A DNA stretch of 64,000 nucleotides from Microbacterium sp. Leaf159 (GTDB lineage Bacteria; Actinomycetota; Actinomycetes; Actinomycetales; Microbacteriaceae): contig NZ_LMOU01000002.1 in NCBI RefSeq assembly GCF_001423615.1, positions 67,573-131,572 of the forward strand, given 5' to 3'. The position numbers were made by a program, and so were the translations under genes. Shown piece by piece: positions 57,958 to 61,071 of this stretch. Within the stretch, counting starts at the first letter, position 1. Every line of letters begins with the position of its first letter. The notes beneath the pieces are model-generated. The model ran no database searches. It was not told where the DNA came from and saw nothing but the letters and a program-made list of their open reading frames with translations.

Positions 57958-58992
57958 TTACGCGTCTCCGCCGAACATGCTCGTGACGGATCCGTCTTCG
58001 AAGACCTCACGGATCGCGCGACCCAGAAGCGGGGCGATCGGCAGGATCGTCAGCTTGTCCCAGCGGCGGGACTCGGTCAGAGGGATCGTGTCGGTGATCA
58101 CGACCTCGTCGATCGATGCGTCCTGAAGGCGCTCGGATGCCGGGTCGCTGAAGATCGCGTGGGTCGCTGCGACGATCACACGATGCGCGCCGTTCGCCTT
58201 GAGCGCCTGGGCGGCCTTGACGATGGTGCCACCGGTGTCGATCATGTCGTCGACGAGGAGGCAGGTGCGTCCCTCGACGGCTCCGACGATCTCGTGCACC
58301 GAGACCTGGTTGGCGACCTTCGGGTCACGGCGCTTGTGGATGATGGCCAGAGGCGCACCGAGGCTGTCTGACCATGTGTCGGCGACGCGGACGCGCCCCA
58401 TGTCGGGAGAGACGACGGTGAGGATCTTGCGATCTTCCGCGCTCAGCGTGCGCTCGAAGTAGTCCAGCAGCACCGGCTTGGCGAACAGGTGGTCGACGGG
58501 ACCGTCGAAGAAGCCCTGGATCTGAGCTGCGTGCAGGTCGACGCTCATCACGCGGTCGGCGCCGGCCGTCTTCAGCAGGTCGGCGACGAGGCGGGCGCTG
58601 ATCGGCTCGCGACCGCGGCCCTTCTTGTCCTGACGCGAATACGGATAGTACGGGGCGACGACGGTGATGCGCTTGGCCGATGCGCGCTTCGCGGCGTCGA
58701 TCATGATGAGCGCTTCCATGAGCCACTCGTTCACCGGCTCGCCGAAGGTCTGGATCAGGAAGAGATCGCAACCCCGGATCGAGACATCGAACCGGGCGTA
58801 GATCTCCCCCGACGCGAACGTGCGGTGCTCGGTGGGCACGACCTCGGTGCCCAGCGACGCGGCGACCGCGGCGGTCAGTGCCGGGTGCGAACGACCACCG
58901 GCGACCACGAGTCGCTTCTTGGTCTTGGCGACGAGTCCGGGGGCGATGCCGTTGTCCCGGTCCAGATCGACAGTCTTCTTCTTGCGCGCCAT
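57958..58992 (-). CDS. prs: Ribose-phosphate pyrophosphokinase
   Basis: A 344-residue PRPP synthase, slightly longer than usual by an N-terminal basic stretch (ARKKKTVDLDRDNG). ASGEIYARFDVSIRG, APYYPYSRQDKKGRGREPIS (ATP loop), VDLHAAQIQGFFDGPVDHL and the PRPP signature LVDDMIDTGGTIVKAA are intact. It makes PRPP for nucleotide, His and Trp synthesis. It is 9 bases after glmU, the common glmU-prs pairing. Confidence 0.95.
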   Translation of the reverse strand: MARKKKTVDLDRDNGIAPGLVAKTKKRLVVAGGRSHPALTAAVAASLGTEVVPTEHRTFASGEIYARFDVSIRGCDLFLIQTFGEPVNEWLMEALIMIDAAKRASAKRITVVAPYYPYSRQDKKGRGREPISARLVADLLKTAGADRVMSVDLHAAQIQGFFDGPVDHLFAKPVLLDYFERTLSAEDRKILTVVSPDMGRVRVADTWSDSLGAPLAIIHKRRDPKVANQVSVHEIVGAVEGRTCLLVDDMIDTGGTIVKAAQALKANGAHRVIVAATHAIFSDPASERLQDASIDEVVITDTIPLTESRRWDKLTILPIAPLLGRAIREVFEDGSVTSMFGGDA

Positions 58993-59001
58993 CGTTTTCG
59001 C

Positions 59002-60432
59002 CTATTCCGCCACTCGGGATCGGACTGCGGCGTCTGCCGCGCCCGTGCCTGCCCTGTTCTTCTCGACCCAACCCTCGATGTTGCGCTGAGGGGCGACGCT
59101 CATGGCAAGGGAACCGGCGGGGACGTCCTTGCGGACCGTGGCGCCGGCACCTGTCTTGGCGCCGGCTCCCAGCCTAACGGGCGCGACGAGGGTCGTGTGC
59201 GACCCGGTGTGCACCTCGTCCTCGACCACGGTGCGGTGCTTGTTCACATCGTCGTAGTTCGCGGTGATGGTGCTCGCGCCGAGGTTGACGCCGCGTCCGA
59301 TGGTCGCGTCGCCGACGTACGACAGGTGCGGGACCTTGCTGCCCTCGCCGATCTCTGCGTTCTTCGTCTCGACATAGGCGCCGATCTTGCCTCTGGCGCC
59401 GAGCACGGTGCCGGGGCGGAGGAACGAGAAGGGTCCGACCGTGGCCTCTGCCCCGATCACGGCGAGCGTGGCGTCGGTACGGCGGACGATCGCATCCTCG
59501 CCCACCTCGCAGTCGACGAGCGTCGTGTCAGGCCCGATGATGGCCCCCTCGGCGATCGTCGTGGCGCGCAGGATGTGCGTGTTCGGGAGGATCGTGACGT
59601 CGGGCGCGAGCGTCGCGTCGTCATCGATCCAGGTCGTCGCCGGATCGATGACGGTGACGCCCTCGAGCTGCCAGCGGCGGACGATGCGGCGGTTGAGGAG
59701 GCGACCGACCTCGGCGAGCTGCGCGCGGTCGTTCACGCCGTAGGTCACGGTGACGTCGGAGACGACGGATGCCGCGACGCGGCTGCCGTCGCGGCGGAGG
59801 AGTCCGGGGACATCCGTCAGGTACATCTCGCCCTGCGCGTTGTCGACTCCCACGGATGGGAGGTACTTGCGCAGCGTGCCGACGCGGAACACGTACATGC
59901 CGGCGTTGATCTCGCGAACCGCCGCTTCATCGGCGCTCGCATCCTTCTGCTCGACGATGCGGTCGACGCCGCCCTCGGCATCGCGGATGACACGGCCGTA
60001 GCCGTTCGGGTCGTCGACGACCGCGGTCATCAGGGTCGCCTCGGCGTCCGCCTCGCGGTGCGCGTCGAGGAACGAGCGCAGCGTGTCGGCATCCGCCAGC
60101 GGGCAATCGCCGGAGAGCACGAGGACGTCGCCGTCGAAGGATGCGGGAAGAGCGTCGACCGCGACCTGCACGGCGCGTCCGGTGCCGGGCACCTCGTCCT
60201 GATCGATGAAGACCGCATCCGGGTAGTCGGCTTCGAGAGCAGCGATCACCTGGTCGCGCTCGTGGCGCACGACGACCTCGACGTGGGAGGCCTCGAGCCG
60301 ACCGGCGGTCGTGAGCACGTGTCCGACGAGTGGTCGTCCACCGATCGGGTGCAGCACCTTGGGCAGGCGCGAGCGCATGCGGGTTCCCTGGCCTGCGGCG
60401 AGGATGATGATCGCGAGATTGTTCCCAGTCAT
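59002..60432 (-). CDS. glmU: Bifunctional N-acetylglucosamine-1-phosphate uridyltransferase/acetyltransferase
   Basis: A 476-residue enzyme making UDP-GlcNAc for peptidoglycan. The N-terminal pyrophosphorylase domain (1-240) has IIILAAGQGTRMRSRLPKVLHPIGGRPLVGH, and GDCPLADADT and NAGMYVFR; the C-terminal left-handed beta helix (about 255-470) has hexapeptide repeats, KNAEIGEGSKVPHLSYVGDATIG and TANYDD. The ATG at 60432 begins one base after the tRNA-Gln 3' end, with no room for a ribosome binding site outside the tRNA. Earlier in-frame codons lie within the tRNA and are not credible. Confidence 0.95.
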   Translation of the reverse strand: MTGNNLAIIILAAGQGTRMRSRLPKVLHPIGGRPLVGHVLTTAGRLEASHVEVVVRHERDQVIAALEADYPDAVFIDQDEVPGTGRAVQVAVDALPASFDGDVLVLSGDCPLADADTLRSFLDAHREADAEATLMTAVVDDPNGYGRVIRDAEGGVDRIVEQKDASADEAAVREINAGMYVFRVGTLRKYLPSVGVDNAQGEMYLTDVPGLLRRDGSRVAASVVSDVTVTYGVNDRAQLAEVGRLLNRRIVRRWQLEGVTVIDPATTWIDDDATLAPDVTILPNTHILRATTIAEGAIIGPDTTLVDCEVGEDAIVRRTDATLAVIGAEATVGPFSFLRPGTVLGARGKIGAYVETKNAEIGEGSKVPHLSYVGDATIGRGVNLGASTITANYDDVNKHRTVVEDEVHTGSHTTLVAPVRLGAGAKTGAGATVRKDVPAGSLAMSVAPQRNIEGWVEKNRAGTGAADAAVRSRVAE

Positions 60433-60433
60433 G

Positions 60434-60505
60434 CTCCGCCGCCAGGACTCGAACCTAGACCTAACAGCTCCAAAGGCTGTCGTGCTGCCATTACACCACG
60501 GCGGA
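60434..60505 (-). tRNA. trnQ: tRNA-Gln (anticodon TTG)
   Basis: The minus strand folds into a 72-nt cloverleaf: acceptor TCCGCCG/CGGCGGA, D stem GTGT/GCAC, anticodon stem ACAGC/GCTGT with loop CTTTGGA (anticodon TTG at 60473-60471), T arm CTAGG-TTCGAGT-CCTGG, and G as discriminator base, usual for glutamine. The CCA is not encoded. The glmU ATG follows after a single base. Confidence 0.95.
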
Positions 60506-60564
60506 CCGCGGCCCCCGAGGGAGCTGCGGGTCAAGTCTGCCACGTCCGCCTGCGTGCTACCGGC

Positions 60565-60576: not shown

Positions 60577-61071
60577 ATGACAGAGGCTGATGAGGTTGAT
60601 CGGATCGTCGGCGCCTGGAACACCCAGCGCCCCGACCTCGACTTCTCACCCCTCGAGGTCCTGTCGCGGATGGATCGGCTGACCCGCCTGCTCGACCGTG
60701 CTCGTCGCGACGTGTTCCGCCGCAGCGACCTGGAGGCCTGGGAGTGGGATGTGCTCTCGGCTCTGCGCCGCGCAGGAGCACCGTTCCAGCTCTCCCCCAA
60801 GCAGCTGCTGCAGCAGACGCTGGTGTCGAGCGGCACCATGACGAACCGCATCGACCGGCTGGTCGGGCGTCGTTTCGTACGACGCGAGGGCGACCCGGCC
60901 GACGGTCGCAGCGTGCTCGTCACGCTCACGGACGACGGGCGGATCAGGGTGGATGCCGCGATCACGCGTCTCGTCGACGTGGAGGACGACCTGCTGCGGG
61001 CGCTGTCCCGCGGCGACCGTGACCGCCTCGCCGCGCTGCTGCGCAAGCTGAGCCTCAGTTTCGACGCGTGA
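60577..61071 (+). CDS. MarR-family transcriptional regulator
   Basis: A 164-residue winged-helix regulator. LEVLSRMDRLTRLLDRARRDVF forms the dimer helices; EWDVLSALRRAGAPFQLSPKQLLQQTLVSSGTMTNRIDRLVGRRFV is the helix-turn-helix; RREGDPADGRSVLVTLTDDG is the wing with the conserved D-x-R. It lies 12 bases upstream of a pseudouridine synthase gene and is divergent from tRNA-Gln. Ligand and targets are unknown. Confidence 0.9.
   Translation: MTEADEVDRIVGAWNTQRPDLDFSPLEVLSRMDRLTRLLDRARRDVFRRSDLEAWEWDVLSALRRAGAPFQLSPKQLLQQTLVSSGTMTNRIDRLVGRRFVRREGDPADGRSVLVTLTDDGRIRVDAAITRLVDVEDDLLRALSRGDRDRLAALLRKLSLSFDA

Follow-up and report, generated by a model that had tools for sequence, protein, structure and literature searches.

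A tRNA-Gln gene adjoining glmU in Microbacterium, and a proposed leaderless message made by tRNA 3' processing

In the window, which is the whole 64,000-nucleotide stretch of Microbacterium sp. Leaf159 DNA analysed here, the gene for tRNA-Gln(UUG) adjoins the coding sequence of glmU directly, on the same strand. The arrangement itself is certain. Comparison with related loci indicates that it is quite probably a bacterial instance of tRNA punctuation, in which tRNA-Gln would be cotranscribed with glmU and 3' cleavage of the tRNA would create a leaderless 5' end.

The tRNA-Gln/glmU junction

The region comprises the following features:
57958..58992, minus strand: prs (ribose-phosphate diphosphokinase), the next gene after glmU
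59002..60432, minus strand: glmU, with its ATG directly after C74, identified by GlmU profile match
60433..60433, minus strand: C at tRNA position 74 (conserved), with cleavage predicted between 60433 and 60432
60434..60505, minus strand: tRNA-Gln(UUG), U1 to discriminator G73, read from the sequence and by ARAGORN
60506..60527, minus strand: predicted 5' leader of the primary transcript, with its start near 60527
60534..60542, minus strand: extended -10-like element TGGCAGACT, a conserved motif and the likely promoter of tRNA-Gln and glmU
60577-61071, plus strand: MarR-type gene, facing away

On the minus strand, the acceptor stem of the tRNA was formed by TCCGCCG (60505-60499) and CGGCGGA (60441-60435), followed by the discriminator G73 at 60434, a C at 60433 and the glmU ATG at 60432-60430, after which the letters were MTGNNLAIIILAAGQGTRM. 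A full CCA was not encoded, the order at the junction being G73-C-ATG. The ARAGORN call, tRNA-Gln(TTG), spanned 60433-60505; since this span begins at 60433, C60433 is included in its tRNA. The sequence-only reading had placed the discriminator at 60434 and the glmU ATG from 60432 on one strand, and this was confirmed.

The glmU gene is generally essential. Its reading frame matched profile NF010932 with 668.7 bits (cut-off 611), and the best named GlmU match, among the best 80 of 394 relatives, was from Microbacterium sp. Leaf320 (listed at 100% identity, and 99.6% when aligned separately). A different start codon was rejected, as no in-frame ATG, GTG or TTG occurred between 60432 and the nucleotide-binding (catalytic) motif; the nearest in-frame upstream codons, TTG at 60534 and GTG at 60543, were located beyond the tRNA. 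Downstream, prs began 9 nt past the glmU stop and is probable as a member of the same operon; upstream, 71 bp separated tRNA-Gln from the MarR-type gene.

An RNA-family search of the same genome produced 44 tRNA matches, of which one (C1:1784762) was left out to give 43 distinct tRNA genes (loci L192-L221, L231-L241 and L001). Among these, tRNA-Gln(UUG) was the sole UUG copy, and tRNA-Gln/glmU alone had an ORF of at least 60 aa at a gap of 1 nt. The tRNA-Tyr gene (L232, from 548, minus strand) encodes CCA and had a gap of 2 nt to a 118-aa ORF, the A of the CCA being also the A of the opening ATG; this is probably due to chance. The genome was also scanned by pattern for any T arm leading into C-RTG, which gave four matches, glmU among them. 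A match at tRNA-Pro was rejected, the reading frame there running for only a few codons, as were the two others, which were absent from the RNA-family tRNA matches.

Conservation of the junction and position of the likely promoter

When the spacing was compared in other Microbacteriaceae, as the sequence-only reading had proposed, a gap of 1 nt was found in 79/79 scorable named loci and in 18/18 same-genus genomes. The scan for named loci retained the 80 best among 394 relatives, with Microbacterium in the title of 74, and so it leans to close relatives; at all 79 the start codon (76 ATG, 3 GTG) directly followed C74. One further locus (L090), where the contig ended inside the tRNA, stood outside the 79, and its remaining sequence reads alike. 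The same-genus genomes, the present one included, belonged to an order-wide sample of 396, searched with a junction DNA pattern that allowed up to two mismatches; they had 17 ATG and 1 GTG, and the junction reading frame was seen in 12 of the 18. In the order-wide sample the pattern matched 38/396 genomes; ten of the 38 deviated from it at the start codon, and two with GTG were out of frame. Matches were present in 7/10 genomes of one other genus (g74), and a locus from another family (L249) had a GTG junction in frame.

For the family sample, 119 of 120 Microbacteriaceae genomes were read, the remaining one (G035) being left out because a contig end cut its glmU. A same-strand tRNA-Gln was located upstream of glmU at 84/119 loci and was not found within ~400 nt at the other 35. 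The 84 comprised eight junctions and 76 loci with a leader of 14-326 nt. Gaps were therefore bimodal, either 1 nt or 14-326 nt, and none of 2-13 nt occurred under the start rule applied to leadered loci (the last in-frame start with a Shine-Dalgarno-like word, or else the last start), while several of these loci had an alternative upstream start at a gap of 5-13 nt that would lengthen the protein. L120, where TTG is at gap 1 but a GTG that has a Shine-Dalgarno is at gap 22, was scored as leadered, and the discriminator of L011 was scored one base late. With a leader retained at 76 of the 84 tRNA-bearing loci, Microbacteriaceae as a family do not depend on the coupling.

The junction recurs in genera other than Microbacterium; on a quick GlmU tree (112 rows) it needed seven changes, at least three of them forced by well-supported branches. 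In this tree, 22 rows were chosen additions (19 junction, 3 leadered), G073 occupies two rows, and 29 family loci (of 119) are missing. Separately, a contig titled as a Microthrixaceae MAG (L109) carried a Microbacteriaceae-like tRNA-Gln-glmU locus, and is possibly mis-binned.

Of 80 scorable junction loci, 79 had the motif TGGCAGA[AC]T within the 80 nt preceding the tRNA, its end lying 23-47 nt from the tRNA; it was present in 0/395 control windows inside glmU. This count began from 82 junction loci, two of which (L090 and L053) were dropped at contig ends, and the single locus without the motif was L110. A looser form was present at 76/84 family loci with the tRNA; a generic sigma-70 scan identified nothing at the position of the tRNA-Gln promoter. 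The conservation of the motif supports the cotranscription that the sequence-only reading had supposed, with the promoter placed ahead of the tRNA. A start near 60527 is predicted, 7 nt past the -10 hexamer, by analogy with relatives lacking the tRNA, where CAGAAT-N6-ATG would put the start at the codon.

In those relatives a -10-like element, often CAGAAT, mostly stood six bases before the glmU start (e.g., L007, L125 and L133). NANNNT was present 5-8 nt before the start at 25/35 tRNA-less family loci, for the most part as the motif also seen ahead of the tRNA, against 49/535 control codons; a Shine-Dalgarno-like word was present at 13/35, and both elements at four. This is a hint that glmU may often be leaderless in Microbacteriaceae without the tRNA. 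Four of the 35 loci had a tRNA-Gln upstream on the opposite strand. At leadered loci, a Shine-Dalgarno-like word preceded the chosen start in 66/76 cases, compared with ~17% of control codons, a contrast somewhat inflated by the preference of the start rule for such words. These patterns suggest that glmU is mostly leaderless-looking from its promoter where the tRNA is absent, leaderless by processing where the tRNA abuts, and otherwise provided with a leader.

The sequence-only reading had named, as the case that would speak against it, a glmU promoter inside the tRNA gene, which would make the message leaderless or nearly so without processing. Promoters at a leaderless distance are indeed seen in 25/35 tRNA-less relatives, and the window's tRNA-Gln has, in its T arm, a TAGGTT resembling a weak -10. 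However, a search by motif found a NANNNT-type -10 at this distance (5-8 nt) before glmU in 0/87 junction loci, so that the promoter before the tRNA was the only one seen, and TAGGTT was not kept, many relatives having CAGGTT instead. An internal promoter is accordingly very unlikely.

Nor was any promoter or ribosome site identified, by motif, between tRNA and start codon in Microbacterium. Translation from the uncut tRNA-glmU transcript, with the tRNA 3' arm as Shine-Dalgarno, is highly improbable, despite the GGAG located one base before the glmU ATG. In Microbacterium this GGAG is too near the ATG, and most of it is base-paired within the acceptor stem. At 5/87 junction loci, none of them Microbacterium (L016, L022, L023, L029 and L151), GGAGG in the tRNA arm stood six bases before the start, a good spacing, and a Shine-Dalgarno on uncut RNA is therefore possible there. 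But if the arm generally served in this way, gaps of ~4-8 nt should be common, and the range of 2-13 nt, which would suit it best, was empty. The spacing and the lack of a junction promoter instead support a leaderless glmU message produced by tRNA 3' processing, as first proposed, and such a message is likely.

The same comparisons bear on whether the fusion is simply a tolerated deletion without regulatory meaning, a view that is compatible with tRNA punctuation and to which we give an even chance. It follows from the family's existing tolerance of a leaderless glmU: the majority of relatives lacking the tRNA look leaderless in any case and, with tRNA-Gln upstream at 84/119 loci, loss of the leader was the only step needed. 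Against it stands the exact spacing kept at every scorable named locus (79/79), although this bears only on the regulatory role.

The predicted cut site and candidate nucleases

RNase Z had been named at the outset as the enzyme that would cut after the discriminator and release a message starting C-AUG. This is the textbook rule for CCA-less tRNAs, and a leader of one nucleotide would still be practically leaderless, but the genome comparisons make it unlikely. The RNase_Z profile had no match in the present genome at E 0.001, while matching 14/14 control genomes (9 above cut-off). Within a class sample of 197 genomes, near-full-length matches (at least 244 bits, none passing the cut-off of 292.95) were present in 51, and in 0/11 Microbacteriaceae, as counted from the matches listed. 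Four of the 11 (G182, of the same genus, and three others) had weak matches, the best at E 3.7e-11, which are probably other members of the superfamily. An RNase Z protein used as query likewise found nothing in 4/4 Microbacteriaceae genomes, and recovered its counterpart in the positive control G520 (63% identity). It is possible that Microbacteriaceae have a very divergent enzyme of the RNase Z superfamily. The genome under study does encode RNase J and RNase E/G, which are candidates for the cut, as well as a CCA-adding enzyme.

Position 74 was C in 43/43 distinct tRNAs of this genome, 32 of which lacked a full CCA (position 75 was A in 20 of the 32), and in 84/84 family and 79/79 named tRNA-Gln loci. 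The idea that C74 marks the loss of RNase Z was ruled out, because G520, which bears the enzyme, had C74 in 27/27 distinct sampled tRNAs (30 of 68 tRNA matches fetched); C74 does not, therefore, identify the nuclease. According to the available text of PMC3848588, Propionibacterium acnes is without an obvious RNase Z, and its cuts inside CCA always fall between the Cs, other CCA tRNAs being cut a few nucleotides downstream. For Streptomyces coelicolor, the portions seen of PMC4681348 describe cuts between the two Cs of CCA-encoding tRNAs, and cuts within a few nucleotides downstream for CCA-less ones. The between-the-Cs cuts in both species thus concern CCA-encoding tRNAs, and the tRNA-Gln before glmU is CCA-less. 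With C74 encoded and cuts between the Cs in two actinobacteria, the message should begin at AUG; a cut after C74 is more likely than one after G73, and the C-AUG end proposed by the sequence-only reading is probably one base off.

Under tRNA punctuation, a transcript of tRNA-Gln(UUG), glmU and prs would arise from one promoter ahead of the tRNA, and RNase P would take off its short 5' leader. A 3' endonuclease, probably not RNase Z, would cut after C74 (less likely after G73), leaving an upstream product whose CCA the CCA-adding enzyme would complete, and a downstream message from AUG (or C-AUG), presumably 5'-monophosphorylated, to be translated by the leaderless route common in actinobacteria. 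GlmU synthesis probably requires the cut, since the uncut AUG would abut a folded tRNA without a usable Shine-Dalgarno in Microbacterium. In the available text of PMC9031893, leaderless translation is reported to require a 5' phosphate and to suffer from distance to the 5' end, which fits a cut leaving AUG at the very end. The first 36 nt of the glmU message were less folded than the gene average in 80/80 cases, although weak 5' folding is common to genes generally, which counts against the weight of this result.

That the level of GlmU is tied to tRNA processing, as originally suggested, is plausible. The fullest form of the proposal seems evenly poised between right and wrong: that in Microbacterium, and independently in several lineages, a cut by an enzyme other than RNase Z after C74 leaves 5'-pAUG, that maturation of the only tRNA-Gln(UUG) gates the synthesis of GlmU (and perhaps of Prs), and that the junction would be a ready-made reporter for the nuclease.

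Comparison with known systems

In mitochondrial tRNA punctuation, excised tRNAs set the 5' ends of mRNAs that have next to no leader. Excision of tRNA-Gln would similarly define a near-leaderless 5' end at glmU; the glmU case differs in concerning a bacterial chromosome, a single junction and a putative 3' nuclease. In E. coli, thrU-tufB and metY-nusA each place tRNA and protein genes in one transcript that is separated by processing, and the resulting mRNAs keep a leader with a Shine-Dalgarno. The tRNA-glmU transcript would also be split by processing, but its junction is without a leader.

Searches of open-licence PubMed Central papers turned up no report of such a tRNA-glmU junction, and term counts showed no mention of glmU in the main text of PMC4681348, PMC3848588, PMC4633059 or PMC5741613. 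The available parts of two archaeal start-site papers (PMC4983044 and PMC4247193) contained no leaderless mRNA made from a tRNA. The junction may offer a handle on a question raised in PMC3848588, namely the identity of the endonuclease that, with no RNase Z in evidence, cuts between the Cs of tRNAs in actinobacteria.

Leaderless mRNAs of P. acnes, S. coelicolor and mycobacteria, as described in the available text of PMC3848588, PMC4681348 and PMC4633059, have the start codon at or near the 5' end and no Shine-Dalgarno. The glmU message would resemble them, its start codon being predicted 0 or 1 nt from the 5' end, also with no Shine-Dalgarno; in contrast to their 5' ends, which in the portions seen were mapped as transcription starts, that of glmU would be processed and carry a monophosphate. 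Another parallel is E. coli MazF, an endonuclease that, according to PMC3848588, acts on finished transcripts to give leaderless messages. Both routes would be post-transcriptional and endonucleolytic, but MazF is a stress-induced toxin that leaves a 5'-hydroxyl, whereas glmU would depend on housekeeping tRNA maturation. If the proposal is true, actinobacteria would have a second way of making leaderless messages, and tRNA punctuation of the mitochondrial type would operate on a bacterial chromosome, at a generally essential gene.
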